The notes beneath the pieces were generated by a model. The model worked only from the letters and a program-made list of their open reading frames with translations, was not told where the DNA came from and ran no database searches. From positions 1 to 20,839 of the IMG/VR virus record IMGVR_UViG_3300038855_000067: a stretch of 20,839 bases of DNA, one strand, 5' to 3'. Within the stretch, counting starts at the first letter, position 1. Every line of letters starts with the position of its first letter. Source of the DNA: a virus. Both the position numbers and the translations under genes were made by a program. Of the stretch, positions 1 through 16,288 are shown piece after piece.

Positions 1-1346
1 GATATGATGTCATAATCTCTAAAAACAACTTTATCATCTTCTATTAGAGTTTTTAAATTAGAACATCCAACTTTCTTAACTGTCTTGGACATTTTCACTC
101 CAAGTTGTGTTTTTGTTCCAGAAAATCCTTGACCTACAATTTGACCTGCTCTACCTCTCATAGCACACATAAGAATATTTTCATATTCAAGATCAAAATG
201 AATAATACTTGCTACTTGGTCTCCAATATCATTAACCTCAACTAAAATAAATGCATTATTATATGACTTAGCTATTTGATATATGACATTTGGAAATATC
301 ATAGGTTTTATTTCATTATTTTTATACTTACCTACTATCTTATGGGGGTATTCTGTTATATCTACAAGAACAAATGCAGAATAATCTATTCCTACTCCAC
401 GAGCAACGTCTACTGTAAGAATATAATCATGTTTGTCTATAGGTTCTTCATATATATCCAATCCTTTATTACTTTTAATAGGATCATCATATGTCATCGT
501 TCTCAACTTAGATGGTGAGATAAGAGTATCAACAGAACCTAAGAACTCACATTCAAACTCAACACGGAACTGTTGTTCTGATGTGTTAGCAATAGTTTGT
601 TCTTTCCATACAGAATCTCGGCCTGGAACTTCTGACCAATGAACCTCTGTTGCAACATATTCATTCTTCTTTCTCTCAGCATCATGCCAATACCTATAAA
701 AATGATTCATCCCGTGAGGGGTTGAAACCATTATGACTTTCGTTGATTTACCAGAAGTAATAGTAGGATAAACAGATGCAAAGAACGAGTCTGCAATATG
801 GTTCGGAACGAAGGCGAATTCGTCGAGGAAGAGGATATTGAACGACATGCCTCGGACAGCACTTGCAGACGTAGAAGCTGCCAATATCTTACTCCCATTT
901 TCTAACTCCAACGATCCTTTGTTCCATGAGATTATACCCTGTTGCATCCATTTAGGTAAATTCTCATACGCAGTTTGTAACCTACCTAAAAGTTCTCTAG
1001 CAGTTGCAGCCTTGTTTGCAAGAATACCAATATTTGTACTATCATTAAAAACTGCATAATGTAAAAGATATGCAACCACAGTAGTAGACTTACCAGTCTG
1101 TCGAGGCATCTTACAAATATTAAATCTATGATTATGAAAATTATTAATTAACTTTTCTTGAAAATCATATGGTTCAAACTGAGTTAAACCTTCATCCAAA
1201 GAGACAATCTTAATATAATTTCTTGCAAAATAAATCGGATCATCCTTACATTTAATAAATTCCTCAATATGTTCTTGAGTAAATTCTTGTTTAACGTTGG
1301 CCTTTTTTAATAAAGGATTACCAAGATAAATGGTATCAGTAGACAT
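1..1346 (-). CDS. gp17: Terminase large subunit gp17 (packaging ATPase/nuclease), C-terminus off the window
   Basis: The frame is open from an ATG at 1346 to the left edge, giving 448 residues without a stop. The protein is the motor that pumps DNA into the prohead and cuts the concatemer. The N-terminal ATPase shows a Walker A (PRQTGKSTT, residues 81-89), a Walker B (ILFLDE, 171-176) and a coupling motif (STPHG, 208-212). The nuclease domain begins near residue 305 with DVARG (D313) and VEVND (E370). The 57-residue spacing of D313 and E370 equals that of T4 D401 and E458. By the same spacing, the third metal-binding Asp (T4 D542) would fall near residue 454, just outside the window. A GGAG ribosome site 8 bases upstream supports this start. 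The gene follows the mosaic protein gene by 15 bases and probably shares its late promoter. Identification is secure from motifs and context. Confidence 0.97.
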   Translation of the reverse strand, partial: MSTDTIYLGNPLLKKANVKQEFTQEHIEEFIKCKDDPIYFARNYIKIVSLDEGLTQFEPYDFQEKLINNFHNHRFNICKMPRQTGKSTTVVAYLLHYAVFNDSTNIGILANKAATARELLGRLQTAYENLPKWMQQGIISWNKGSLELENGSKILAASTSASAVRGMSFNILFLDEFAFVPNHIADSFFASVYPTITSGKSTKVIMVSTPHGMNHFYRYWHDAERKKNEYVATEVHWSEVPGRDSVWKEQTIANTSEQQFRVEFECEFLGSVDTLISPSKLRTMTYDDPIKSNKGLDIYEEPIDKHDYILTVDVARGVGIDYSAFVLVDITEYPHKIVGKYKNNEIKPMIFPNVIYQIAKSYNNAFILVEVNDIGDQVASIIHFDLEYENILMCAMRGRAGQIVGQGFSGTKTQLGVKMSKTVKKVGCSNLKTLIEDDKVVFRDYDII

Positions 1347-1361: not shown

Positions 1362-2612
1362 TTAATCTATTTCGTCTTTATTAGTTAATTGTGAAAAAAT
1401 ACCTTTACTATCTTTTTTCTCTGGTGGTTTAGATTTCTCTTTTTTTGTTACTACTCCATTCATTTTAACTATAGGTTTTGCAGCATCAACTCCACATTTA
1501 ATATGTGGTGCTAATTCTTCTTTTGCTAACTTAGTAGCAGTAGCATACATTACACTTTCAGCATCATCTCCATATCTAGCTCTAAAACCCTTAAAGCTTT
1601 TCTTCATTCCTTTTACTACTCGTTCTTTTTCCTTTTCTTCACCCTTTGTTAATTTTCTCTCACTAATACCTTTCATAGGTTCTGGTTTAATAATATCAAT
1701 AAACTCAACATATCCAAACTGACCTTCTACTCTAACAGTATCTTCTCCATACAACTTTGGTCCACCTGCTTTCTTTTCTGCAGCAGCCTTCTCATTGGGA
1801 TTTTGATTACCTTTTGCAAGATTACGAATCTTTGCTTTCTTTTGTGCAGTTTTATGTGCTTTAGGATCGATCTCAAAACTTTCTTTCTTAATCCTTTTTT
1901 TAGCTGATCTCTGTCTCATCATATCTTTAAAATCAACATCAACTTGTCTTGCTCTAGCACTATCCCAATCTTTAGGATCATCACTCGTACTAAGTACAGC
2001 TGCTTTATTTAATTTTTTAGCATCCTTTGTACTTAATGCTTCTTCTACTTTTTTCAAAGTAAACTCTTCACAACTAGTTTTTTTCTTTTTCTTTTGTTGT
2101 AAAGCTGGTTTCATATAATCTGACTGTTGAACCAGATCTTTTGCACCTGGTTGTTTTTCTTCTGGAACCATCAAAGTAGGATTGGTTGGATCAAATTCTC
2201 TTGGTTGAAAATATCTAACAACAGCACCTGGATATATTTTATTAACTTCTTTCTCCACTTCTAATCTTGTTGGTTTACTTAACTTAGAAATAAACAACTG
2301 AATATTATAAGTTCTACCTCTAAAATAAAGCATGACAGCATAAGTCATACCATTCTTAACAAGACGTTTGAAGTTTTCGCTTACTCCTCCACCACCATTT
2401 CCGCCACCATTACCGTGACCGCCATTACCATTACTGCCACCATTGCCATTACCATTTCCATTCCCGTTATGGGACCCATTACCGTTGCCATCTCCACTCC
2501 TATCTGGATATAGATATCCTCTAGCACCTATATGGTAACCTGTAGGAATCTTTTTACATTTTTCATCATCAAAACACCAATATTTCCCAGGAGGACACTT
2601 CTTAGCTTTCAT
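1362..2612 (-). CDS. Mosaic Cys/Gly-Asn/Lys-rich phage protein, function unknown
   Basis: This 416-residue protein starts at the ATG at 2612; an in-frame TTG at 2621 would add three residues but is less likely. I do not know its function. Four parts are visible. The first is a Cys-rich head (CPPGKYWCFDDEKC, residues 6-19) followed by GYHIGARGYL. The second is a Gly/Asn run (about 40-76). The third is a compact domain (about 85-152) with YFRGRTYNIQLF, NKIYPGAVVRYF and DPTNPTLMV. The fourth is a long Lys-rich, probably helical region ending in RARYGDDAESVMYATATKLA (345-364). From memory, similar segments occur in other marine T4-like phage proteins in different combinations; this was not checked by search. 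It lies between the fibre-like gene and gp17 and has its own perfect late promoter, so late expression and a head or packaging role are inferred. No signal peptide or membrane segment is visible. The four cysteines could bind a metal. Confidence 0.85.
   Translation of the reverse strand: MKAKKCPPGKYWCFDDEKCKKIPTGYHIGARGYLYPDRSGDGNGNGSHNGNGNGNGNGGSNGNGGHGNGGGNGGGGVSENFKRLVKNGMTYAVMLYFRGRTYNIQLFISKLSKPTRLEVEKEVNKIYPGAVVRYFQPREFDPTNPTLMVPEEKQPGAKDLVQQSDYMKPALQQKKKKKTSCEEFTLKKVEEALSTKDAKKLNKAAVLSTSDDPKDWDSARARQVDVDFKDMMRQRSAKKRIKKESFEIDPKAHKTAQKKAKIRNLAKGNQNPNEKAAAEKKAGGPKLYGEDTVRVEGQFGYVEFIDIIKPEPMKGISERKLTKGEEKEKERVVKGMKKSFKGFRARYGDDAESVMYATATKLAKEELAPHIKCGVDAAKPIVKMNGVVTKKEKSKPPEKKDSKGIFSQLTNKDEID
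2384..2494 (-). repeat. Gly/Asn low-complexity coding repeat
   Basis: About 37 residues made almost only of Gly and Asn (GNGNG, GGNGG units) are encoded by GGT/GGC/GGA and AAT/AAC codons. It reads as a flexible linker between the Cys-rich head and the following folded domain. The degenerate trinucleotide repeat makes length changes by slippage likely. Confidence 0.85.
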
Positions 2613-2633: not shown

Positions 2634-2641
2634 TATTTATA
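2634..2641 (-). promoter_or_regulatory. T4-type late promoter (TATAAATA)
   Basis: The minus strand reads exactly TATAAATA, the consensus bound by the T4-type late sigma factor gp55. It overlaps the TAA stop of the upstream fibre-like gene. If initiation is about 6 bases downstream, the leader before the ATG at 2612 is about 16 bases. It would drive the mosaic protein and gp17. No -35 element is expected for this class. Confidence 0.72.
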
Positions 2642-4421
2642 CTTTAGTCAGAGTTGTTACTAATTTAAAAGTAGTAGAATCCCCTGAAGTTGGAGTTGCA
2701 AGTAATCTCACATTACCAGAATTAATATCAGTGTCAAAAGACGCTAATGAATTACCAGTTTTTATAACTGCATATTCTGTTCCATAGGAATTACTCCCAT
2801 CATGAATAACCAATACTTCTGATGTTTGATAAGAACTACCTCTTACAACTTGTATATTATACTTGGCAGAACGATAAGTTGCAGCGGCAAAAGTATTAAT
2901 GGCAGTCTGTGATGTAGATGATGTAGTTGAAACACCACTAAGAACTGCTCCATCATTTAAAATAACACTAGCGGCTGTTACTGTTCCAACAGTAATACTT
3001 GGATATCCCGTCAATCCTGATGCATTGGTAGCAAGTGTAGCAGTAGCAGCATTACCTGTACATGAACCAGATGAACCAGATGTATTACCAGTCACATTAC
3101 CAGTTATATTACCTACAAAAGTTGTTGCTGTAACAATACCAGTAGTAAATATATTATCTTGACTGATTGTTACTGCACTTCCAACTTTAATATCACCACC
3201 AGTTACATTTACTCCACTTTTTGCGGTTATAAGTCCGACTGAATCAATATTAGTTACATCTTCATAAGTTAAAGTTCCACCAACAGTAAGATCACCAGAA
3301 ACAGTCACATTATCAGGAAGTCCAATTGTAACTGTAGTTCCACTAGCAGAAGTTTCAATTTCATTTGATGTACCAGCAATAGTAAGAGTTTCACTATCAA
3401 GATCAATATCAATTGCATTACTACCATCACTAACATCAAGATCTTGTGCAGTTACATTACTATCAACATATGCCTTGATTGATTGTTGAGTGGCCAGTGC
3501 TATTGAACTGTTGGATGCCATATTATCTTCATCAAGTATTGATGTGGCAGTAACAGAACCCATCCTGAGTTGGGCTAGTGTACTAACACCAGTAACATTA
3601 AGGTTTCTACCTGTTACCTCATCATAACTTATATCTCCAGTAACATTCAGATCACCAGCAACAGTTACATTACCAGTTGAAACAAGATTAGCAGCAGTAA
3701 TAATACCACTTGTATTAATACTACTTTCTGTTCCAACACCAGAAGAAGATACTCCTTTCCATTTACCACTAGCAGAATCATATTCAAGAGTTTTACCATT
3801 AACTTTTGCAGTATCTCTATCTACATCATCTAAAAACTCAAGTCTAGTTTCACCAGAACCAGGTCCATGAGCAAGAACTTTATAAAGAATATTACGTAAC
3901 TCTTTAACTTCTTTTTTAATACTATCTACATCTGGATCATTTGGTCCAATATCTTGTAACTCTTCCTTAACTTGAGTATCTTCAATAAACTTAATTGCTT
4001 TAGATATAGTATCACTTATATCCTCATCAGTTTTCTTCTTAGGATTCTTTGGTAGCGGTGAATCGTATTCACTACTATTTGGTGGATATTCCTTTAATGG
4101 AATAGAATTTATAAATCTCTCAGTTTGATCATCATCAAGTTTCTCTAAACTTTCTGGATCAAAATCTTCTGGAACACCAACAGTAACCTTTGGTTCATCG
4201 AGAATTTCTAAAACATTATCTAATTGTGCTATAAGTTTTTCTTCGTTTCTTTTCTGTTCCTTTACTTCTACTTCAGCTTTTTTAATTCCATCAAAAGTTG
4301 AAGAAACTAATGAATCTATATCAACATTAGCTTCCTTGAGTAAGTTATCAAACTCTTCTTCTTTTTCCTTTTTAGCCTGACCAAGAAGACTAAAGAATTC
4401 TGACAGTTCTGGTGATTTCAT
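2637..4421 (-). CDS. Fibre-like virion protein with GDLxVxG repeats
   Basis: The protein has 594 residues, and its ATG overlaps the gp16 stop (ATGA), which indicates translational coupling. Residues 1-180 are acidic and rich in Glu/Lys with heptad-like helical stretches. A segment near 185-230 (KVLAHGPGSGETRLEFLDDV, then AKVNGKTLEYD) is of a kind I recall from marine phage structural proteins. From about 235 the chain is rich in Thr, Val, Ser and Gly with no cysteine-rich or catalytic motif. It carries two GDLxVxGxxxYxxVT modules (about 244-265 and 370-393) and an ATQQSIKAYVDS motif, features typical of phage fibre shafts. The C-terminal 110 residues (about ILNDGAVLSGVST onward) look like a beta-rich tip. 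The likely role is a trimeric fibre or appendage. Its place in the neck/packaging cluster suggests head or neck attachment rather than baseplate, but that is inference. Confidence 0.88.
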   Translation of the reverse strand: MKSPELSEFFSLLGQAKKEKEEEFDNLLKEANVDIDSLVSSTFDGIKKAEVEVKEQKRNEEKLIAQLDNVLEILDEPKVTVGVPEDFDPESLEKLDDDQTERFINSIPLKEYPPNSSEYDSPLPKNPKKKTDEDISDTISKAIKFIEDTQVKEELQDIGPNDPDVDSIKKEVKELRNILYKVLAHGPGSGETRLEFLDDVDRDTAKVNGKTLEYDSASGKWKGVSSSGVGTESSINTSGIITAANLVSTGNVTVAGDLNVTGDISYDEVTGRNLNVTGVSTLAQLRMGSVTATSILDEDNMASNSSIALATQQSIKAYVDSNVTAQDLDVSDGSNAIDIDLDSETLTIAGTSNEIETSASGTTVTIGLPDNVTVSGDLTVGGTLTYEDVTNIDSVGLITAKSGVNVTGGDIKVGSAVTISQDNIFTTGIVTATTFVGNITGNVTGNTSGSSGSCTGNAATATLATNASGLTGYPSITVGTVTAASVILNDGAVLSGVSTTSSTSQTAINTFAAATYRSAKYNIQVVRGSSYQTSEVLVIHDGSNSYGTEYAVIKTGNSLASFDTDINSGNVRLLATPTSGDSTTFKLVTTLTKV

Positions 4422-4822
4422 TTATCATCTTTCTTTTGTGCTTTTATTAATTTTGAAAGTTCTGCAGTAGAACCAACAAACAAAGCATTAGTCACATTGG
4501 TTGGACCTTTTGGTTGTTCATCTAGTTCCTTCATTTTTTGTTGAAGGTCAATAAGTTTATCGGTTGTATCACCAACACTCTTAATCATTTGACCAGCAAC
4601 TTCATATGCTCTTGCACTATCACTTTCTTGAGCAAGTTCTAAAACACCATTAAGTGCTTCTTGACCCTTTTCAATAAGAGAGTAAAGATTTCCTCTAGTA
4701 TAATCATAATCTTTCTTAGTATCATTAACCTCCGATTTTAACACAGGTTTAGGAACCTCTTCAACCTCAACTATTGAAGTTTCTATATCAAGAGCATTAT
4801 CTATAGCATCAAAATTTTTCAT
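4418..4822 (-). CDS. gp16: Terminase small subunit gp16
   Basis: The protein has 134 residues; T4 gp16 has 164. It recognises phage DNA and stimulates the large subunit at the start of packaging. The N-terminus is acidic. A central helical region (about 40-105) contains ARAYEVAGQMIKSV and a Gln/Lys-rich helix that suits the oligomerising coiled coil of the family. The C-terminal NALFVGSTAELSKLI corresponds to the NATVFMGSPTELMDEI segment of T4 gp16. Its position between gp15 and gp17 supports the call. The start lies one base after the gp15 stop. The end overlaps the fibre-like gene by four bases. Similarity is modest, so the call rests on the C-terminal motif, size and gene order together. 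Confidence 0.86.
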   Translation of the reverse strand: MKNFDAIDNALDIETSIVEVEEVPKPVLKSEVNDTKKDYDYTRGNLYSLIEKGQEALNGVLELAQESDSARAYEVAGQMIKSVGDTTDKLIDLQQKMKELDEQPKGPTNVTNALFVGSTAELSKLIKAQKKDDK

Positions 4823-4823
4823 A

Positions 4824-5876
4824 TCAAACGTCTATTCCTTGTGATGGACTGTAAGTTTTTCCGTCAGTGAAGAAAGAAGTTGTTTCATTGAAACCAAAAT
4901 CATCACCAAGTTCTATTAGAGCATCATCATCAGTACTGAGGATGTTAACAGTTGCATTGTGTTCATGCGTTGCAGCTGTAGTACCATCATATGCTCTGTA
5001 AACTGTCAAAGTAGCAGTTGCAGTATCATTAGTTCTGACCTTCATAATCTCACTATCAATGATAATTCTATCACCAGTACTAATATCAGTTGTAGCACTT
5101 AACTTAATCTTAGTCTTCTTAGTATCAGCAATACCACCATCTACAACGGTTGTTTCATCGGAATCATAATCCTTAAGTGCCTTAGGAGTAGCAGTATATC
5201 TCTGAACTCTCTTGGCTCTCTTACGATCAGTATCAGCATAGTAATCGACATCGACCTTCTTGATAAGACCTTCTGATGTATCTGCAATAGCGCCGAATAG
5301 ATGTGTCTTAGCAGTAAATCTTAAAGTATGAATAATTATTCTTCTACTTTCAAAACCACCTTGGTAGTCATCAGACATATCAATTCCTTCTAAAACAATT
5401 GGTACATCTTTCTTTTCACCAATGGAATCAACAAGGTTAATTGTTATGTTGAATGATGGTTGAAAATATGGAAGTATTTGTTCAATAATTTGAAGACCAT
5501 CATCACTTAATTTTGATAATATACTTAATTCAAATCCAACATTATAAGGAACAGGCATATAAACCTTTCTTGCTTTTGTATTATTCTTTGCAGTAAATGT
5601 TTGAGTTATACCTGTCTTTCTTGTTGGGTCATAAGTAAGACCAGTCATTTCAAATGATAATCTAGGTACAGTTATTGCCGTCTGTCTATCTAAATCTGCC
5701 TGTTGTTGAATTCTTGCCAAGAACTTCTGCATAGGTCCATATGCAAGAGGTACTTTAAGAACACTAAAATTATTTCCAGCACCATCCTGATGACGAATGT
5801 TAATGTTATTGAAGAGAGTACCAAAACCTATAACAGTTTTTCTCAGTATCTCGTGATAAAAATACGTACCTAACAT
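4824..5876 (-). CDS. gp15: Tail terminator / sheath stabiliser gp15
   Basis: The protein caps the finished tail tube and sheath and forms the joint to the neck. It has 350 residues, against 272 in T4. The N-terminus (MLGTYFYHEILRKTVIGFGT LFNNI) matches the T4 pattern of MFGYFYxxxxRRYxxLxGDLFSNI. LQIIEQILPYFQPSFN (128-143) is nearly identical to the T4 signature QIVEQILPYFQPHFN. SRRIIIHTLRFT and FGAIADTSEGLIKKV also align. The extra length comes mostly from a C-terminal module at about residues 256-313, also found in two other proteins of this window. The gene starts 19 bases after gp14, and a near-consensus late promoter overlaps the gp14 stop. Confidence 0.95.
   Translation of the reverse strand: MLGTYFYHEILRKTVIGFGTLFNNINIRHQDGAGNNFSVLKVPLAYGPMQKFLARIQQQADLDRQTAITVPRLSFEMTGLTYDPTRKTGITQTFTAKNNTKARKVYMPVPYNVGFELSILSKLSDDGLQIIEQILPYFQPSFNITINLVDSIGEKKDVPIVLEGIDMSDDYQGGFESRRIIIHTLRFTAKTHLFGAIADTSEGLIKKVDVDYYADTDRKRAKRVQRYTATPKALKDYDSDETTVVDGGIADTKKTKIKLSATTDISTGDRIIIDSEIMKVRTNDTATATLTVYRAYDGTTAATHEHNATVNILSTDDDALIELGDDFGFNETTSFFTDGKTYSPSQGIDV
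4938..5111 (-). repeat. Shared DE-I/R-G-H module, copy in gp15
   Basis: Residues 256-313 read KIKLSATTDISTGDRIII, then DSEIMKV, then LTVYRAYDGTT and AATHEHNATV. The same order (sheet, GDxIxIxxE, [VI]xR, GT/S, H) appears in the gp7-position protein and in the DUF4815 protein. It is a protein-level repeat; the DNA copies are diverged. Confidence 0.7.
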
Positions 5877-5892: not shown

Positions 5893-5900
5893 TATTTAGA
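5893..5900 (-). promoter_or_regulatory. Probable late promoter (TCTAAATA) for gp15
   Basis: The minus strand reads TCTAAATA, 7 of 8 matches to the T4 late consensus. It includes the TAA stop of gp14, the same arrangement as the perfect motifs near 2634 and 17878. The predicted leader to the gp15 ATG is about 11 bases. It is weaker evidence because the DNA is AT-rich. Confidence 0.45.
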
Positions 5901-7284
5901 ATGTACCGAATGGATTCCTTTCTGTGAAGTCTAATAAATCATCAGCCTCCGTCTCAAAAGTCTCATTATCAGCATATTGATCAGCAACATACTCACTATT
6001 TGTAAAGTCGGTTGGTTGATTATAACTAATAGATTGAATAATATATTCTGCTCCAGAAGTTTCTCCAGTTACTTTTTCTCCAACCTGTAATGCCATTGAA
6101 GTAAGCATGGAAACATCAAGTGTTCTAGAATCTGAATCCCAAACTTTAACCATAGCAGTTCCTCCAGAAGAAGCAAATCGAATTGGTTCATTGAAGATAT
6201 AATCACCATCACCTATTGAAGTTGCAGCACCAATAGTAATGGTTGGTGTTGATGTATACCCAGTACCAGCATTTGATAGACGAATATATCTAACAGTACC
6301 ACCTACCATTACAGCTTCAGCAGTAGCAGTAACAGCAGTACCAGAGACGCCTCCAGTAAATGTTATTGATGGAGTTGTAGTATAACCAGAACCACCACTA
6401 GTAATAGTAACGATACCTACTGAACCTAAAGTCGTTATGCCAGCAGTTGCTATACCACTGCCAGGCACTGTTACAGTGGGTATACCAGTATATTGGTTAC
6501 CTGGGTTAATTAGAAGTATCCTATCAATAGATTTACCCGTTGCAATACCACTCCTTTCTGTCATTATAGCGACAGCAGTTGCATTAGTTCCTGGGGATGT
6601 ACTAATTGATATTGTTGGAGCGGCAGCATATCCATATCCATCATCTTGAACGAATATCTTATTAACTGCATTATAAACAACTGTTGTATTAGCAGTAGCA
6701 GTAGCTCCTACTCCAGCAAGAACCAATCTAGCCATATAACCATCTGTTTGGACAGTCTTATCAATAGCAGCTACATCAGTATCAATAACTTCATCTTCAT
6801 ATTCAAAGAGTTCACATTGAAGTTCATAAACATAATTCTTTTTAAGTTGATAAAAAGGTTTTTCATGTTCAACAAACTTAATTTCAAATAACCTTTTACC
6901 CAATGGGAAAAATATTAAATCACCTTCTTTCGGTCTATTAGAAAGAGTATACTCTCCATCTTCCTTTAAAAAAGGAGAAATAGCTTGTTCAAATCTTTCT
7001 CTTGAAATAACAAAAGTTGCTTCATCAGTAGAACGAACACCAAACTTGGTTAATATATCACTATTTCCAGCATAACCATCAACATTAACCATATAAGCTT
7101 CAAGAGGAAAAGCTTCATCGAACCTTGATTCGATAACTTCCTTCATTATTGTTCTTGAAGTTACTAATTTTCTAGGAATATAATGACACTCAATGCCATA
7201 CATCCGCAACTGTTCATTAACAAGGTCTTGAACTAAACCTTGTTCTGATGTAGACCCTTGTAGAAAAAATGGATTTAATGCCAT
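5896..7284 (-). CDS. gp14: Neck protein gp14 with inserted GxGYT repeats
   Basis: gp14 joins gp13 at the head neck, where it completes the portal vertex and accepts the tail. T4 gp14 has 256 residues; this one has 462. The N-terminal 170 residues carry the family core: MALNPFFLQGSTSEQGLVQD, YGIECHYIPRK, FEIKFVEHEKPFYQLKK and YVYELQCELFEYEDE. The core is interrupted by four repeats of about 40 residues, near 214-228, 260-274, 298-311 and 339-352. A GEKVTGETSGAEY module follows (402-414), then a closing LLDFTERNPFGTF tail typical of marine gp14. The start follows the gp13 stop by two bases with GGA six bases upstream, so the genes are probably translated together. The repeat block accounts for nearly all of the extra length. 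Confidence 0.95.
   Translation of the reverse strand: MALNPFFLQGSTSEQGLVQDLVNEQLRMYGIECHYIPRKLVTSRTIMKEVIESRFDEAFPLEAYMVNVDGYAGNSDILTKFGVRSTDEATFVISRERFEQAISPFLKEDGEYTLSNRPKEGDLIFFPLGKRLFEIKFVEHEKPFYQLKKNYVYELQCELFEYEDEVIDTDVAAIDKTVQTDGYMARLVLAGVGATATANTTVVYNAVNKIFVQDDGYGYAAAPTISISTSPGTNATAVAIMTERSGIATGKSIDRILLINPGNQYTGIPTVTVPGSGIATAGITTLGSVGIVTITSGGSGYTTTPSITFTGGVSGTAVTATAEAVMVGGTVRYIRLSNAGTGYTSTPTITIGAATSIGDGDYIFNEPIRFASSGGTAMVKVWDSDSRTLDVSMLTSMALQVGEKVTGETSGAEYIIQSISYNQPTDFTNSEYVADQYADNETFETEADDLLDFTERNPFGTF
6229..6645 (-). repeat. Four GxGYTxxPTxxI repeats inside gp14
   Basis: Four units recur at about 40-residue intervals, with cores DGYGYAAAPTISI, NPGNQYTGIPTVTV, SGGSGYTTTPSITF and NAGTGYTSTPTITI. 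Each is preceded by a strand ending in an S/N-x-G turn and followed by Gly/Ala-rich strands, which suggests a beta-solenoid or stacked beta-hairpin insert. Confidence 0.85.
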
Positions 7285-8501: not shown

Positions 8502-8735
8502 TTAAGTATTTAGTTTTTGGTTTAATGACACTAATAAAGATTTAATTTCACTCATCTCATCTTTTACAGTATCAAGATCTTCTTTCATCTTTTTCAGTTC
8601 ATTATTTTTTCGCGAAACAACTTGTTTCCTACTCATATATGCTTGATAATCATTAGTATTCCTATTAATAACAGCATTAGAATCCTCGTCTCTGTATAAA
8701 CCAGGTCTTCCTTCAACAGGGGAGTAATTTGACAT
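8502..8735 (-). CDS. Small coiled-coil protein, unknown
   Basis: The protein has 77 residues. The N-terminus has VEGRPGLYRDEDSNAVINRN, a loop-like segment of a type I recall from small proteins of marine T4-like phages. Residues 37-76 form a charged heptad pattern (LKKMKEDLDTVKDEMSEIKS, then LLVSLNQKL), a likely parallel coiled coil of two or three strands. The ATG overlaps the stop of the DUF4815 gene by one base (TAATG), so it is probably translated by reinitiation in fixed ratio to that giant protein. A role as a small trimeric clip, chaperone or fibre-assembly factor is a guess from this coupling. Confidence 0.8.
   Translation of the reverse strand: MSNYSPVEGRPGLYRDEDSNAVINRNTNDYQAYMSRKQVVSRKNNELKKMKEDLDTVKDEMSEIKSLLVSLNQKLNT
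8507..8514 (-). promoter_or_regulatory. Possible late promoter (ACTAAATA) for the 121-residue gene
   Basis: ACTAAATA matches the late consensus at 6 of 8 positions and lies just before the stop codon of the 77-residue gene, with a predicted leader of about 9 bases. It could equally be chance in AT-rich DNA. Confidence 0.25.
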
Positions 8736-11700
8736 TATGCAAGTGCAATAGCTCTAAGTTCTTTAATCTTAGGTGGATGTGCAACATTAGTTCCAACCAT
8801 AATAATTTTAATTTGGAACTTACTGAATGGAGGAAGTTCTCCAGTAGTAAAGACATATTCCTTAAATTCAGTAGAAACAGATGGAGTAACCTTACTATCA
8901 GGAAGTCCACTATTCTTACCCTCATTAATAATTAATCGATCTTGATCAAGATTATCATACCCTGGGAAGAATTGCCAATTTCTATTCATACTATTTTCAG
9001 TAGAACCTTCACTAATTATTTTATATGCGGCTCTGAAATCAGACTCTGATGTTCTATTTCCAGCAAATTCAAGTGTAAGAGTACTGGCTGGATTATCAAG
9101 TTTTATTAACTTAGAAACATAAGTAGCATCACAAGGATCTTGTCCAGTCATCTTAACTGATCTATCAGTAACAAAATCTGATACTGGATTATTAATTCTA
9201 TTAGTAGTTAGAATCATGTTAACCCTATCCAAATCAATAGCAGGAGAATAATTCTCATTATCACTAAACAAATTCATTTCTAGAGTAAATGATTTATTTC
9301 CTGGCATTTCTTGTAACTTGTTAGTTTCATTAACACCAGAAGCAATAAGTCTTGTAGTATCAAAATGGTACATTTCATCCAATTCAATAGCTTCATAACC
9401 TTGATCGTTAAATGATGCTTCTGAACCATCAATACTTGTACCAGACACTGTTCTTACTCTAGCAGAAATATTAGTCCCTGGAGGAGTTATTGTTTGAATA
9501 TTTGTTGTAAGAGTTTCAAACTCTATATTTTGTGAAGCGTGAATCCTTTCACCACCACCTATTTTAGTCTTACCAAAATACCTATTTGATAATGGACTAC
9601 CATCAACCCTATTAGCTCCATCTTTACCACTCATATCAACTTTAAGATGGTAAAAATCAAATCCCTTATCATTTGGAACAGTTGGAGCTAATGTAGCTTT
9701 ATCATGAATCTTATTAATCCTTCTTAAAGAAACTCCACTAAATTCATATTTTTTAATTTTATCTTGTCTGTCATGATTAACAGGAGTACTCCCATCAACT
9801 CCTCTAGTTGTTATACCAGTAATAACCTTATCACCAACTCCAGTATAAGAAATAATTTCATCATTTATTATAGCATAACCGAAGTTGGTAGTTCCAACCC
9901 CAACACCTTCAAAAGTAGCAAAGTTAGATGAATCAGATACATTGATAGAAGTTGTTTGATCCCAATCATAAGCCTGAGTTAATTCAGTTTCTGCAACATC
10001 AGATTCAACATCTTCGACCTCAATAAAGTTATTAAATGCATTCATTGCATGATTATGATGAGCAACTCTAAAGTGTAAACCATCATTAGTTGCATCTACA
10101 TCAAATGAAGCAATACTAGCTCCACTTCCAACAGTCTTTCCATCCAATCCAATATCTGCAGAACCATTGTTAAAGTTAATAGTTCCTAAACCAACATTGA
10201 ATTTACCTTGTATTCCATCAAGAACAACAGTGTTTGTTGATGTAATAAGACCAACAGAAATAACAGCTCCACTTCCATTTCCAAGTCCTAGTGTTCCAAT
10301 ACCAAGAGTATCACCTAAAGCAAAGTTTTTACCACCATTAGACAATGTAACTACACCTACTACACCATTATTAATAGTTACATTACCAATAGCACCACTT
10401 CCATCACCTGTTTTTGTAATCATAGGTACAGCGTTATATGTAAAGACACCACTAGATGGAGTATAACCAACACCAGGATTGATGACAGACAGATCATTTG
10501 AACCATTAATAGTAGCAATACCAGCAGTATTAACTAATTTTGCATATGCACTTAAATTACCTGCTTGAGTAATGGTACAACCAGGTTTACAACCAGATTG
10601 GGGAGCAAATGTACTTCCTATTCCAACAATAGCCTTTCTAGAAAGACTTTGAATTGCATTAGGTACTAATTTTGGAATCTGACTATTGGCTCTATTAAGA
10701 GTTGGATTATAGAAACGACAAACACCACGACGTGTATTAAATTTCGCCTTATACATAGTAAACTTCATATCTTCATACTGACTTGGATCCCAAGTAGTAC
10801 CATTCTGAGATTTGAACAAAGAACCAAGATATGGTTGTTGACTAATAATAACTTGTTCATTATCAGCTAGATTTTTAGTAGATATATCTACCTCACCCAT
10901 TCTAGATATCCAACAAGTATAATTCTCTGATGGTGTTACTAGAACAATAGCAAATTCTTGTTTGCCACTTAAGAAAACTGGAGCATCAAACTTAAAGTTT
11001 GTTGGTATTGAAGCATCCTCAGATACATTAACATCTTCGGGGTCTTTAACAACAACACTAAATGGTAGAATCTTAGAAGTTGGAAGACCAGTCTGAACTG
11101 TTCTAATCTGCATATTAATAGGTATTTCTGTATCCTTATCTCTTAAGAAAACATCTACAGAAGTTGCATAGATACCAACTTCATCATCTATTCTAACTGT
11201 TTGTGCAAGAGGGTCATACCACTGAATACCAGTAACCTTAGGCGCCTCATCTCCCGTACCCTGAATCTTAGTGGAGGTAATCATACCTTGAATAACTTGC
11301 TTTTCACTTTTATTCAAATGTTGAATCTGTGGAACTCTAATGGTCATTATGGTTTCTTGAACCGTTTGTAATTGACCAGAAGCATAGAAATTAGCTTCAG
11401 CAGAACCAGTAACTGTTCCTTCCACTGTAGAATTTGTTTCACTAGTACTAAGTCTTAATGTTTTAGTACCACACTCAAACTGTGGATTAGAAGCTGAATT
11501 TGCATCTGGAATATTAAAACAAGACTTCATATTACCCAAAGCATCAGTAATTAATCTAACATCATTAACTGTTGCTTCAGCACCACTAGTATGTCCAATA
11601 AGTTTCATTCCAACAGCAGTATTACCAGCATAATTATCACTCATATTAGCTAAACTTCTTGTGTCTATATTCAATATTTTTGAAGATGTTGAATATGAAG

Positions 11701-14700
11701 CAGGAACACCAGCATCATTATCATATGGATTCAAAGTAATAACTTTAGTCGGTGCATTATAAGGACCATTCCTATGATTTGATTGACAAACTCTAGCTCG
11801 GAACTCTGGTCCACCAGCACCCCTTTGTGTAACTTTTTCACCAACTTGAAATACACCCTTAGTCATTGTAATTTCAAGTAGTTTTGGTGTACAGAATTTA
11901 GTAACATTAATATTATCAAAGAAACAATAGAATCTAGTTCTAGGTTTCATCCTAGTAGTCTCGATTTCAATGTTCCTCGTTCTCATATAAGGAACCTTAT
12001 CTGTACTTAATACTTTGTCACCTTGAGAAAACGTATTATCAGCATACGTAACCTTCATTTGAACGCCTTCTCTAGACTTATGCGTAGTGGTTTGAGTATC
12101 CTGCCATGTAGAAGTTTCTTCTAATTTTGCATTTTCAATAACACCTTTACCTTTACCTATCCATTTTCCATTAAGTTCTATAACTTTCGAATAATTTGCT
12201 TTATGTTGAATTCCTTTTAAATTAGCACCTTTAGGTAAATCTTTTGGATGAATATTTCCAAGATCTGTTATTGTAGTTTTAGTAACAGAACTTAAAACTT
12301 GAGTGCCAGTCCAATCAGTTTGCCAAGCACCCCACTCCATTGGACCCAAACCAGTATTGGGATCAATTTTATGTTTAGCAAGAGCCTTCTGATAAGCATC
12401 TTCATTAACTATTCTATTAGCAGCAAGTCTCTTAGTATCCATCCAAGTATCTGAATCTGGATGGATAGTCATATCACCTGCATAGTAAACAATCAAAAAT
12501 GGGTTAACATTTTCAACTCTAGAAGCATAAACTTGTTTAATTAAAGGAACTTCCTCATAATCCAAAGTTAAAAGTGGACCATTCCTTCTAATATTCTCTC
12601 CATCAATATCAGTAGCAGTAGAAAGATCAACAGTTGGATCTGCAGTAACTCCAATACCAATATAAGACATAGAACCAACAGCTAAATCTATTGAAGTTGT
12701 ATAATGTCCTGGTCTTAAATAACCCTCGTTTGGATCAATAGATGCAGAGAAATCTGGATGAGCAATTTGATGAGAAGCATGACTCTTGAAATTATCTACA
12801 AAAAATCCAGATTTATACCTATTAAAACCATCTGCATCAGTTATTTGCATATTAGCAGTATCAAGTTCAAGTAAAGATAATCTAGTGTAATATTCTACAT
12901 TTTTTAATCTATCTTCAAGTTTTCCAATATCAGACATTGTAAAACGTCTATGTGGAGTTTTCTCCACCATAACTTCATTTACATTATCAACATAAGCTGG
13001 CATCATTATTGTAGCTACTGGAAGTGCATCTCCAATATTAGCTGGTGTACCAGGAACCTCTTGAGGAACACCTTCGGTATATAACCATTTACCCTGTTTA
13101 GATAAGAATAATCTATCTACTCTAGGCAAATAATAGTTATAACTTGCAATTATAGATTCATCTGGAACTAAAGGATCTGGAACATTATTTGTAGCAAACT
13201 CTCTTGATTTAAAATCAAAAGGTGATAAAGTAGATACACCAACATTATATGCATTTACTCTTGGTCTAATATCAATTAAATCACTATCTTTAACATCATA
13301 GTCCATATTATATGGAACCAAATGCAAACTACCAGCAGGATAACTAGAAGCACTATAAAAATCTCCATTATCATCAGCATCTATATAAAAATTCTTAAAT
13401 ACTACTTTTAATCTATTAGTTGGTTCTTGATAACCTTTCTTTCTTGAAATATATGAGAAATCATAATATGTAGATTTGGCATTTGTAGTTAACTCATACT
13501 GACTAGTAATATTTTTATCACCACTAGTTGTATTAGCTACAGTTGCAGTTATCCCAGATTTTTCTGTTTTTATTGTTTCGCCCAAAGAAAATCTATTGTC
13601 ATTAAGGAAAACAATACCTATTGTTGTTGTGTCTGGTCTCTCTGCAAAGAGTGCAACAGCATCACTGTCTAAACCTGTTATTTTTTCTCCAATAATAAAA
13701 TCACTATTATTTCCACTAGGTCCACCATAAGCAGTAAGAGTTATAGATGGAAGATCTGGATTTCCATTATCATTAGATTCATATACTCCAACCATCTCAA
13801 CACAATCTGGAAGATTCAATGAAATATGATTATCTTGAACTCTAGTTCCATATGCTCTACTAAATGTTAAACCATCATTTTTAGTATTAGTTCCAATACC
13901 AGATGCTTCATCTGTTGATCTATTAACTATAAGAACATTAGCAGAATTTAATTTCTTTAACTTGCTATTTACTTTTGCTTTTAAAACAGTTGCATAGAGA
14001 TTTGCTTTTCCTGATGCATGACTTAAACCTACAAATGTTACCGTCTTTTTATCAGTGGCAAAAATACATTGACTTGCTTTTAGAGGTTCAATATCTCCAT
14101 CATCATATGTAATTAAATACCTTTCTTCATCAAATGGTTGGAAGAACATATCATCTCCCGCATGTGGTGAAGTAAACTGTCTATTAACAACATTTATTGA
14201 ATCATATTGTTTTCTAAATTGAACAGTTGTAGTTGTTACATCTAAACTCTCAATTTTATCATTTGATAGAGGAGTTACAAGACTATTTTGGCCAAGCTCA
14301 AAAGTAGGTTTTCTTATCAAAACATCAGTAAGAGTTGTAGTTCCTTGAGGAACACCACCATCAGCAACATTAGGAACAGTTACTATACCTGCAACACTTA
14401 TACTAAATCCATCATTAGCAACACCAGTAACTCTATTAAATGTTGGTAAACCTTTACCTGGAACTGTATAAGAAATAATATTATTCGTTGTTACAAGTCC
14501 AACAAAACATTTATTATCAGCAGAAATTGTGCCTGTATTACCAGCACCCCATACCAACTGCATATTTCCACGAGTAAATGGATCTCCATTATCTAAAACA
14601 AAATCTGCTTCGAAAGTAGAAACTCCAACATAACTACGTAATGATTTTACATGATTAAAACCATAATTATCTATTTTTTTAATTGTTCTACCATTATTAA

Positions 14701-16288
14701 CACCATTGATAATAATAGCTTCATCTTTAACAAACTCACCAGTAACATCAACAAGTGTTAAATTAGTTTGATTTACTCCCATTCCTTGATCATGAACAAA
14801 TCCACTTGCACCACTTATAGATCCCATAACTCTATCAGAAGCAGCAACAAATGTAATTGCTGTTCCAACTACAATCTTAGTGAATGTTTTTATATCAAAT
14901 AATCTAAGTTCATATTGAGTTGACTGATTAGAATAACTAGCAGATTGTGATTTAAAATCATAAATTCTAGCAATACCAACAGTTTCACCATATGCATTAG
15001 TACCAACAGTACCACTTCTTCTTGCATTTAATAATTGAACCGTAGCTGTAGTTCCTATACCAAGAGCAGGGGAACCATAAACATTATTAACAAAAAGAGG
15101 ATCTCCAGTTTCATAAGCTATAGATCTTTCTTCAACATGTCTTGTAGTTCTTGGTTTTGGAACATCAATAAATGATGTAGAAATTTTCTCTATGTCATAT
15201 CCCCTAACAAATGCTTTACCAGGAGATACTTGAAGAACCATCAAATCTTTTGAAGGTGTTCCACCCTGTTGAGTTTTCTGATTAGATGTATATATTCCCT
15301 TATTTCCAATACTATCATTTAGAGATTCTTTCATATGAACCTGGAAAGGTTTAACATAATAATCTCCAGATTCATCATAAGTTCTAGCAGCAAGAGTATC
15401 TCTTATTAAATTATATTGTGTATCTTTTACAAATGTTTGTAGATCTCCACCTTCTATACGAGAAATTTCAATAAAATTCTGATCATTTAGATCATCTAAA
15501 TTCTTTTTTGTTAAACTTACTTCTATCTTTAATCTATCGGCACCAGGAGCAGCATAATTTGTATATCCAGAAGCATTATCCATCAAGGATGCATCTTCAT
15601 CAGCGGTTATAAAATTCTCTTTAACATCAAAACCAACCCTATATGATGGTGTATTAGAATACTGATCAAGTATTAAAGTTTGATTTAAAACCTGTACAAA
15701 TTGTCCTCTGACAAAATAAACACCTTCACCGACTGACATTGCAGATCCAGTAGCAGAAGAAGAAAAAGCAAGAGTATTAGCAAATGGTTCATTTGTACCA
15801 ATAACGCTTGAACCATAAACAAGATCTTCAGTAGTTAATAAACTTTCTCCATCAAAAAATGTTTCTTGTGAAAAATCTTCTGCACCAGACTTCTCATATT
15901 TTAAATATAAAGTAAGATTGTTTTTTATAGAATCTTCAGCAAGAAGAACCTGTTTAATCGAAGCAGTAACACCAGACCTATCACCAACAATTCTTAAACC
16001 TTTTAACTGATCTGCATATAGTTCTACTGGAATTCCTAAAAAAGTATCTTCTATCTGAATACATTGATAATTAGGGTCATAAGTTAAGTTACCAGGAATA
16101 ACCTTTGATCCTTCCTTAAAGAAATGCGTACCAAACTGTTCAATCTGATTTTGTAAAATCGATTGTAAAGTACTTAGTTCTCTCGCTTGAACTGGGGTTC
16201 CAGGTTTAAAAAGAACTTTATAAAAGTTTTTATTTTTATCAAAATCGTCAAAATATGGATTGACGTTTAGGTTAGTTTCCTGTGGCAT
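8735..16288 (-). CDS. Giant DUF4815-type tail/baseplate protein
   Basis: The protein has 2517 residues, more than a third of the window. Residues 1-70 (ETNLNVNPYFDDFDKNKNFY, then KVLFKPGTPVQARELSTLQS and KEGSKVIPGN) are the signature of the DUF4815 family of phage structural proteins. A conserved block near 1110-1192 has RRFTMSDIGKLEDRLKNVEY, then SGFFVDNF and GYLRPGHY. Another near 1688-1830 has YDPLAQTVRID, GIYATSVDVFL and WISRMGEVD. Residues about 1909-2029 hold GxGYT-type repeats; about 2111-2179 hold a second shared module; GxTSGAxA-type segments recur throughout. The C-terminal 350 residues look like a beta-rich carbohydrate-binding or fibre-attachment domain (inference). It occupies the place of T4 genes 9-12 and wac, so it probably forms the baseplate periphery that carries the fibres. 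No enzymatic motif was seen. Confidence 0.93.
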   Translation of the reverse strand: MPQETNLNVNPYFDDFDKNKNFYKVLFKPGTPVQARELSTLQSILQNQIEQFGTHFFKEGSKVIPGNLTYDPNYQCIQIEDTFLGIPVELYADQLKGLRIVGDRSGVTASIKQVLLAEDSIKNNLTLYLKYEKSGAEDFSQETFFDGESLLTTEDLVYGSSVIGTNEPFANTLAFSSSATGSAMSVGEGVYFVRGQFVQVLNQTLILDQYSNTPSYRVGFDVKENFITADEDASLMDNASGYTNYAAPGADRLKIEVSLTKKNLDDLNDQNFIEISRIEGGDLQTFVKDTQYNLIRDTLAARTYDESGDYYVKPFQVHMKESLNDSIGNKGIYTSNQKTQQGGTPSKDLMVLQVSPGKAFVRGYDIEKISTSFIDVPKPRTTRHVEERSIAYETGDPLFVNNVYGSPALGIGTTATVQLLNARRSGTVGTNAYGETVGIARIYDFKSQSASYSNQSTQYELRLFDIKTFTKIVVGTAITFVAASDRVMGSISGASGFVHDQGMGVNQTNLTLVDVTGEFVKDEAIIINGVNNGRTIKKIDNYGFNHVKSLRSYVGVSTFEADFVLDNGDPFTRGNMQLVWGAGNTGTISADNKCFVGLVTTNNIISYTVPGKGLPTFNRVTGVANDGFSISVAGIVTVPNVADGGVPQGTTTLTDVLIRKPTFELGQNSLVTPLSNDKIESLDVTTTTVQFRKQYDSINVVNRQFTSPHAGDDMFFQPFDEERYLITYDDGDIEPLKASQCIFATDKKTVTFVGLSHASGKANLYATVLKAKVNSKLKKLNSANVLIVNRSTDEASGIGTNTKNDGLTFSRAYGTRVQDNHISLNLPDCVEMVGVYESNDNGNPDLPSITLTAYGGPSGNNSDFIIGEKITGLDSDAVALFAERPDTTTIGIVFLNDNRFSLGETIKTEKSGITATVANTTSGDKNITSQYELTTNAKSTYYDFSYISRKKGYQEPTNRLKVVFKNFYIDADDNGDFYSASSYPAGSLHLVPYNMDYDVKDSDLIDIRPRVNAYNVGVSTLSPFDFKSREFATNNVPDPLVPDESIIASYNYYLPRVDRLFLSKQGKWLYTEGVPQEVPGTPANIGDALPVATIMMPAYVDNVNEVMVEKTPHRRFTMSDIGKLEDRLKNVEYYTRLSLLELDTANMQITDADGFNRYKSGFFVDNFKSHASHQIAHPDFSASIDPNEGYLRPGHYTTSIDLAVGSMSYIGIGVTADPTVDLSTATDIDGENIRRNGPLLTLDYEEVPLIKQVYASRVENVNPFLIVYYAGDMTIHPDSDTWMDTKRLAANRIVNEDAYQKALAKHKIDPNTGLGPMEWGAWQTDWTGTQVLSSVTKTTITDLGNIHPKDLPKGANLKGIQHKANYSKVIELNGKWIGKGKGVIENAKLEETSTWQDTQTTTHKSREGVQMKVTYADNTFSQGDKVLSTDKVPYMRTRNIEIETTRMKPRTRFYCFFDNINVTKFCTPKLLEITMTKGVFQVGEKVTQRGAGGPEFRARVCQSNHRNGPYNAPTKVITLNPYDNDAGVPASYSTSSKILNIDTRSLANMSDNYAGNTAVGMKLIGHTSGAEATVNDVRLITDALGNMKSCFNIPDANSASNPQFECGTKTLRLSTSETNSTVEGTVTGSAEANFYASGQLQTVQETIMTIRVPQIQHLNKSEKQVIQGMITSTKIQGTGDEAPKVTGIQWYDPLAQTVRIDDEVGIYATSVDVFLRDKDTEIPINMQIRTVQTGLPTSKILPFSVVVKDPEDVNVSEDASIPTNFKFDAPVFLSGKQEFAIVLVTPSENYTCWISRMGEVDISTKNLADNEQVIISQQPYLGSLFKSQNGTTWDPSQYEDMKFTMYKAKFNTRRGVCRFYNPTLNRANSQIPKLVPNAIQSLSRKAIVGIGSTFAPQSGCKPGCTITQAGNLSAYAKLVNTAGIATINGSNDLSVINPGVGYTPSSGVFTYNAVPMITKTGDGSGAIGNVTINNGVVGVVTLSNGGKNFALGDTLGIGTLGLGNGSGAVISVGLITSTNTVVLDGIQGKFNVGLGTINFNNGSADIGLDGKTVGSGASIASFDVDATNDGLHFRVAHHNHAMNAFNNFIEVEDVESDVAETELTQAYDWDQTTSINVSDSSNFATFEGVGVGTTNFGYAIINDEIISYTGVGDKVITGITTRGVDGSTPVNHDRQDKIKKYEFSGVSLRRINKIHDKATLAPTVPNDKGFDFYHLKVDMSGKDGANRVDGSPLSNRYFGKTKIGGGERIHASQNIEFETLTTNIQTITPPGTNISARVRTVSGTSIDGSEASFNDQGYEAIELDEMYHFDTTRLIASGVNETNKLQEMPGNKSFTLEMNLFSDNENYSPAIDLDRVNMILTTNRINNPVSDFVTDRSVKMTGQDPCDATYVSKLIKLDNPASTLTLEFAGNRTSESDFRAAYKIISEGSTENSMNRNWQFFPGYDNLDQDRLIINEGKNSGLPDSKVTPSVSTEFKEYVFTTGELPPFSKFQIKIIMVGTNVAHPPKIKELRAIALA
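9752..9957 (-). repeat. Shared DE-I/R-G-H module, copy in the DUF4815 protein
   Basis: Near residues 2111-2179 the protein reads TSINVSDSSNF, then YAIINDEIISYTG, then ITTRGVDGSTPVNHDRQDKI. This is the same order as the gp15 and gp7-position copies and the clearest match to the common phage-tail form with DEIISY and TRG. Confidence 0.72.
10200..10560 (-). repeat. GxGYT-type repeats in the DUF4815 protein
   Basis: Two or three diverged units with cores NPGVGYTPSSGVFTY and NGGKNFALGDTLGIG are separated by Gly-rich strands (GDGSGAIGNVTI, GNGSGAVISVGL). They resemble the repeats in gp14 and gp8. Confidence 0.7.

Follow-up and report, generated by a model that had tools for sequence, protein, structure and literature searches.

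Modular proteins encoded between terS and terL in marine T4-like phages, and prohead-protease-type sites at their module junctions

In a 20,839-nucleotide viral fragment (IMG/VR record IMGVR_UViG_3300038855_000067, hereafter the window), the gene directly ahead of terL encodes a protein of 416 amino acids (aa), which we call the target. It is made up of a Cys head (M1), a Gly/Asn linker, a 'YPGA' domain (M3), a basic helical stretch with M4, and a helix-turn-helix module (M5). Judged by its place and by its M1 and M3 modules, the target is a further variant of a modular protein family encoded between terS and terL. The new observation concerns this family as a whole: [LIVMF]-x-E sites, of the type cut by the T4 prohead protease, mostly separate its modules. 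We suggest that the target is probably a polyprotein that the prohead protease would process into small, basic internal head peptides.

Modules, their shuffling and their place

A sequence-only reading of the window had described the open reading frame (ORF) at 1362-2612 on the minus strand as a mosaic that includes a Cys head, a Gly/Asn run, YPGAVVRYF and RARYGDDAESVMYATATKLA, and all of these are present in the 416-aa product. It had counted four N-terminal cysteines as well as two at residues 181 and 373. The latter two stand, but translation from the ATG gives three at the N-terminus, not four; the fourth needs a TTG start at 2621, and the coding sequences of L001 (an IMG/VR contig) and of other M1 proteins begin where the ATG lies. 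The modules it named are real, but there are more of them, namely the M4 stretch (residues 238-297) and the 'EFIDIIKPEP' motif (298-315).

The mosaic character of the chain is far more general than the window alone, each module recurring elsewhere with other partners. When the target was compared by tblastn with 50,697 phage records (E ≤ 0.01), pieces of it matched separately in 55 records and no match covered 80% of the query; residues 3-38, 77-150, 242-295 and 316-373 each match different phage proteins. The parts thus occur apart and not as one fixed family, and a single conserved family for the whole chain was rejected for this reason. A full-length relative, 63% identical, is encoded by L001, likewise just ahead of terL, and its translation has about 70 additional residues after M5. 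A tblastn search with ORF29 of cyanophage S-SCSM1 found modules of this kind in 497 of the 50,697 records, mostly cyanophages and mostly under the name 'hypothetical protein'.

The positions of the modules were mapped with simple profiles built from proteins of the window and of S-SCSM1. A joint alignment of every module fragment turned out poor and was set aside. M1 is N-terminal in the target, L001 and S-SCSM1 ORF29, internal in L003, L006, L069 and L076, and near the C-terminus of an S-SSM7 protein (residues 927-958 of 997), and its neighbours differ among these proteins. The M4 profile matched in eight places of the module-protein set, and M5 was found 93 times, in 80 ORFs of the loci examined, mostly without other modules. 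Modules also occur alone, DUF6321 as genes of 84 and 83 aa and M3 as proteins of 87-129 aa. In the long positional homologues, DUF6321 (PF19846) corresponds to the FCARMKG module at the C-terminus; its earlier assignment to the LHKWFKGSK module was wrong. The two stand-alone DUF6321 genes lie in the cyanopodovirus P-SCSP1d (L171 4959-5213), where the major capsid gene is adjacent, and in the pelagiphage HTVC034P (L172 4983-5234); a podovirus structure paper (PMC10575957) yielded nothing on this gene for the terms searched. The modular protein of L091 (1-1848) has acquired a DUF192 domain (COG1430) as an insert at residues 210-312, and a protein of L104 (3699-4391) resembles it by eye.

The full-length AlphaFold2 (AF2) model of the target is of the beads-on-a-string kind, with a predicted local distance difference test score (pLDDT) below 50 in residues 41-85, 147-193, 282-294, 306-315 and most of 370-416, and with M5 as a confident helix-turn-helix. 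M3 was also modelled alone, from 62 sequences (Table 1). Within a viral model library it matches S-SCSM1 ORF29 with a TM-score of 0.84 by query length. The PDB gave no significant match by fold for M3 or the full target model, and nothing convincing by sequence for M3 or ORF29. The nonsignificant PDB neighbours of M3 include T7 Gp2 and RNA polymerase epsilon (YkzG), at Foldseek E-values of 0.5-1; their VIA Z values of 4.6 and 4.5 are tied with that of an archaeal ribosomal protein (4.7). As for the metal site that the sequence-only reading had proposed to look for, none can be claimed from the predicted structure, M1 having three cysteines in a model of moderate confidence.

The place of the gene is conserved. 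Eighty relatives of the window terL were fetched as loci, and among the 33 that extend at least 2.9 kb upstream of terL, all but one (L107) have a module protein within 3 kb; M3 is present in 28 of the 33, M1 in 14 and DUF6321 in 23. With at least 200 bp upstream, a module protein is found in 67 of 78 loci. The long form runs M1, Gly/Asn linker, KWF, KDACYHK, CWDGY, (RYCPKC), M3 and DUF6321, and shorter versions consist of M1-linker-M3 (138-160 aa) or of M3 by itself. The target bears the marks of this family, in that its gene lies between terS and terL and M3 follows M1 and a Gly/Asn linker. Public annotation places the long form in phrog_727 ('unknown function') and T4-GC119 ('hypothetical protein'). 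These cyanomyovirus hypotheticals (S-SM1 SSM1_115, S-SCSM1 ORF29, Syn9 gp114) occupy the same place, between gp16 and gp17, a region earlier named a hot spot of variable genes (PMC3037559), and their long members such as ORF29 share M1 and M3 with the target. However, the target is without KWF, KDACYHK, CWDGY and DUF6321, and has M4 and M5 instead. By these searches it is not filed as a member of phrog_727 or DUF6321: phrog_727 is not among the eight families listed for it at E ≤ 10, whereas ORF29 does match phrog_727, and a Pfam search gave nothing above the cut-off, with DUF6321 not matched.

Prohead-protease-type sites at module junctions

The T4 prohead protease gp21 cuts after Glu in L/I-x-E (PMC9026906). 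We counted the motif [LIVMF]xE[AGSD] in the junctions between modules, with the expectation obtained by shuffling each junction. The discovery set consisted of 46 of 61 proteins, non-redundant at 70%, with 152 junctions after very short ones were excluded. The motif is present in 110 of the 152, against 40.5 expected (standard deviation 4.65), while only five motif sites fall within 10,208 module residues. P3 favours V, I, M and F, and the residue after Glu favours A and S. With other residues at P1, the observed/expected counts were 29/26.5 for D, 39/44.6 for K, 14/14.0 for Q, 23/27.2 for S and 12/23.4 for N. Sites are scarce in a few kinds of junction (KDAC to RYCP 1/5, M4 to M5 0/2, KWF to RYCP 0/2).

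The enrichment was replicated on 63 new loci, which remained after removal of 12 sharing contigs with the terL-relative set and omission of five further loci already included. Their 63 multi-module proteins were reduced to 19 that are non-redundant and less than 70% identical to the discovery set. Sites are present in 62 of the 87 junctions (21.3 expected, standard deviation 3.71) and in none of 5,412 module residues, and the corresponding controls gave 11/13.6 for D, 24/24.3 for K, 5/7.1 for Q, 10/13.2 for S and 18/21.9 for the P2 shift. Over whole proteins, the strict motif [LIVMF]xE[AGS] occurs 172 times in 52 multi-module proteins, against 73.7 expected, and 32 times in 28 single-module proteins (11.8 expected). 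In contrast, 200 module-less proteins of the same loci are depleted, with 164 sites against 228.8.

S-SCSM1 provides a yardstick. Its ORF29 has seven [LIVMF]xE[AGSD] sites, falling between its seven modules. In a ranking of 131 proteins of this phage, hand-picked with small ones mostly omitted (48 tagged as virion proteins and 83 others of about 280), the scaffold gp22 comes top with 12 sites against 4.55 expected, followed by ORF89, a tagged virion protein, and then gp21; the T4 gp22 scaffold is itself a gp21 substrate. S-SCSM1 gp23 has FLAE/A after residue 58 (a slash marks the putative cut here and below), and the T4 gp23 propeptide is given as 65 residues (PMC5694885). The L097 locus, whose terL is 85% identical to that of the window, carries gp21 (Peptidase_S77, E 2.5e-34), gp22 and gp23 downstream.

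In the target, four [LIVMF]xE triplets are present, all at module borders, none within a module, and all matched in L001. Among relatives, every one of the 17 matched Gly/Asn linkers of M1 proteins in the terL-relative loci ends in [VMI][SG]E, 30 of 33 M1 proteins of the replication loci have [VMILF]xE just after the Gly/Asn run, and [LIVMF]xE stands directly before the M5 core in 29 of 41 distinct M5 copies. The putative border sites of the target would be weak taken alone, and are supported by this family pattern. The papers returned by a literature search, as far as their text was accessible, held no description of a prohead-processed polyprotein or of a function for these modules.

Table 1. 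Features of the target, its putative border sites and the neighbouring genes (window positions; aa numbering of the target)
Feature	Position	Strand	Basis
Modular-protein coding sequence (target)	1362..2612	-	ATG start, 416 aa; full-length homologue in L001
M1 Cys head, aa 4-38, Cys 6, 13, 19	2499..2603	-	Profile; N-terminal, internal or C-terminal in other proteins
Gly/Asn linker, aa 39-79, predicted disordered	2376..2498	-	AF2 pLDDT < 50 for 41-85
Putative site V-S-E79/N, closing Gly/Asn linker	2376..2384	-	Family linker ends
M3 'YPGA' domain, aa 80-150, predicted alpha-beta-beta-alpha-beta	2163..2375	-	Alignment; AF2 pLDDT 81, predicted template modelling score (pTM) 0.66
Putative site V-P-E151/E, at M3 end	2160..2168	-	L001 has M-P-E/Q
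Putative site V-E-E191/A, before helical segment	2040..2048	-	L001 has V-N-E/V
Basic helical segment, aa 192-297, including M4 (aa 238-297)	1722..2039	-	AF2 helices 187-281
'EFIDIIKPEP' motif, aa 298-315	1668..1721	-	Also in positional homologues, by eye
Putative site I-S-E318/R, directly before M5	1659..1667	-	[LIVMF]xE before other M5 copies
M5 'RYGDDAESVMYATATK' module, aa 319-369, helix-turn-helix	1506..1658	-	AF2 pLDDT ~97 over 321-360
Lys-rich disordered tail, aa 370-416	1365..1505	-	AF2 model
terL (gp17), N-terminal part, directly downstream of target	3..1346	-	ORF; its relatives define terL loci
Tail-fibre-like protein, directly upstream of target	2637..4421	-	phrog_30742 tail fiber, E 5e-42
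terS (gp16)	4418..4822	-	phrog_445 terminase small subunit, E 6e-53

Virion detection, leaders and competing explanations

Relatives of the target have been detected in virions. Mass spectrometry of purified S-SCSM1 virions identified 45 proteins (PMC9602691), and in the sequence record of this phage the product of ORF29 is named 'virion protein', a tag that terS and terL do not carry. In S-CREM2, gp136 and gp137 are both encoded between terS and terL, and both are listed in the mass spectrometry table (PMC10665884), gp136 with eight peptides (24.1% coverage) and gp137 with four unique peptides (4.1%). By eye, gp137 has M3 and a DUF6321-like C-terminus, and gp136 has an N-terminal leader resembling the T4 capsid-targeting sequence. 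The sequence-only reading had left the choice between DNA contact and an internal head protein. The detection of positional homologues in virions and the protease-like sites at the borders better support the internal head; direct DNA contact by the target would be compatible with its positive charge (isoelectric point 9.65, with 66 K, 19 R, 24 D and 31 E).

Several relatives have, adjoining the modular gene, an M3 protein of about 105 aa that starts MKSFKQF[LM]SE/S or near. This start resembles the T4 capsid-targeting leader and is found in 10 of 14 small M3-only proteins of the terL-relative loci and in all 10 of those in the replication loci. As a general mark of module proteins, the leader was rejected: a regular expression for it matched 1 of 98 module ORFs and 10 of 1,142 others, which leaves it as a mark of the small M3 paralogue only. 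According to PMC9026906, the T4 targeting sequence has about 10 residues, of which 4 and 7 serve targeting and 8 and 10 processing. Similar starts were seen in S-SCSM1 ORF30 (L083 9551-9868; MKTFKQFMSE/S), which belongs to these small M3 proteins, and in ORF91 (L086 38819-40045; MKSFLQFLKE/A), an NMNAT reported in virions, and for the latter the leader suggests how NMNAT may enter the head. Some M5 proteins among those of L058, L060, L074, L056 and L002 start MKI[TK]K-x-x-LK-x-II-x-EE, possibly another leader ending in I-x-E.

We infer the following route. A precursor consisting of short, mostly basic, partly Cys-bearing modules and disordered linkers, encoded between terS and terL, would enter the prohead, where gp21 would cut it after hydrophobic-x-Glu at the module borders. 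The expected products are the Cys head with its Gly/Asn tail, M3, the helical M4 piece and M5, and at least some of these peptides may stay in the head with the DNA and be delivered at infection like the T4 internal proteins. As the same type of site would release each module, modules could be swapped, gained or lost without refolding of their neighbours, which would explain the mosaic.

A number of points weigh against this reading. The motif was chosen after the linkers had been read by eye, which leaves only the replication set as a fair test, and the junctions are related by descent. Some controls exceed the shuffles (observed/expected), in the discovery set T at P1 (29/21.4), R (26/16.2), the reversed motif (56/41.0) and the P4 and P2 shifts (57/40.1 and 53/40.6), and in the replication set T (22/11.9), the reversed motif (29/21.8) and the P4 shift (31/20.7). 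In the target itself, the four triplets are fewer than the 6.2 predicted by composition, the probability of 0.023 for all four lying outside ordered modules depends on borders drawn by the analyst, the strict motif occurs once against 1.28 expected and so is not enriched, and two sites have an unusual residue after Glu (N and R). Its N-terminus is the Cys head, with no capsid-targeting leader. On the S-SCSM1 yardstick, ORF29 alone reaches only z 1.66, and the tagged virion class shows little excess (106 sites against 95 expected; others 93 against 91.8). The S-SCSM1 record tags 48 proteins where the paper reports 45 (PMC9602691), and ORF30, an M3 protein with a leader, has no tag. Finally, coverage of S-CREM2 gp137 is low, and M5 and DUF6321 are not confined to the proteins at this place, with a podovirus among the other carriers.

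The best-surviving alternative, although in our view an unlikely one, is that the target stays uncut, as a flexible virion protein with several domains in the neck, tail or fibre region, whose linkers carry hydrophobic-x-Glu triplets through their composition or through the capping of helices where domains begin. Its neighbours are indeed fibre-like and neck genes, fibre neighbours in S-SCSM1 are tagged as virion proteins, and the linkers are Glu-rich, with reversed and P4-shifted motifs mildly enriched. However, the excess shows specificity for Glu at P1, a hydrophobic P3 and A or S after the Glu; the sites precede varied module types, several of which do not begin with a helix, and almost none lie inside modules, and other proteins of the same loci have no such excess. 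Slightly less probable again is a component of the prohead core or scaffold that would be cut by gp21 and then mostly expelled, as T4 gp67 and gp68 are, serving no purpose once assembly is complete. In T4, cleavage of the core proteins yields several fragments, most of which are lost from the head (PMC9026906), and the coverage of just 4.1% for S-CREM2 gp137 looks as if little remains; yet relatives are still detected in purified virions, and the T4 core genes are conserved, unlike these frequently exchanged modules. A packaging cofactor that is not part of the virion, binds DNA or terminase and acts with the neighbouring terL, as the place between terS and terL and the strong positive charge might suggest, is very improbable given that homologues are detected in virions, that metabolic genes separate the equivalent gene of S-SM1 from gp17 and that proteins besides the one encoded at this place also carry the modules.

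A processed polyprotein of internal head peptides is thus the interpretation we favour. A wider proposal, which we put forward only tentatively, is that marine T4-like phages use a rapidly reshuffled, cleavable polyprotein to load small basic peptides into each head and inject them into host cells, the modules being exchangeable takeover or anti-defence peptides. M3 might then bind host RNA polymerase, an idea prompted by its weak structural neighbours, which include T7 Gp2 and RNA polymerase epsilon.

Genomic setting, known systems and implications

The window contains a block of T4-like late genes, encoded on the minus strand in the order gp13, gp14, gp15, terS, fibre-like gene, target gene and terL. 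One ORF of 2,517 aa (8735-16288) occupies more than a third of the window. The neck protein gp14 (5896-7284) and the sheath stabiliser gp15 (4824-5876) have inserts, at about residues 187-352 and 235-328 respectively, that match repeat regions of large virion or fibre families, indicating that other proteins of the late block are mosaic too.

Among known systems, the T4 internal proteins IPI-III and Alt, which are targeted to the capsid, processed by gp21 at L/I-x-E-type sites and injected, are likewise small, basic and fast-changing. A leader of the same kind is borne by the M3 paralogue of relatives, not by the target, and unlike IPI-III and Alt the target chain holds several modules, with a putative site between most of them. 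Several gp21 cuts per chain, as proposed here, are described for T4 gp22, gp67 and gp68 (PMC9026906), a likeness drawn without sequence comparison; unlike in those proteins, the modules here are shuffled and split by disordered linkers. Mosaic proteins arising from domain shuffling are common in phages (PMC10684548), and the accessible text of that account mentions no punctuation by protease sites such as that proposed between the modules described here.

If the proposed reading is true, a large unannotated block of marine phage sequence gains a place and a route, from the prohead with the DNA to the host, and existing mass spectrometry data could test the internal-head-peptide interpretation at once. 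It would also explain how proteins assembled as mosaics of modules still work. Were the wider proposal of injected peptides to hold, tailed phages would possess a polyprotein strategy of their own, in which the prohead protease does the processing.
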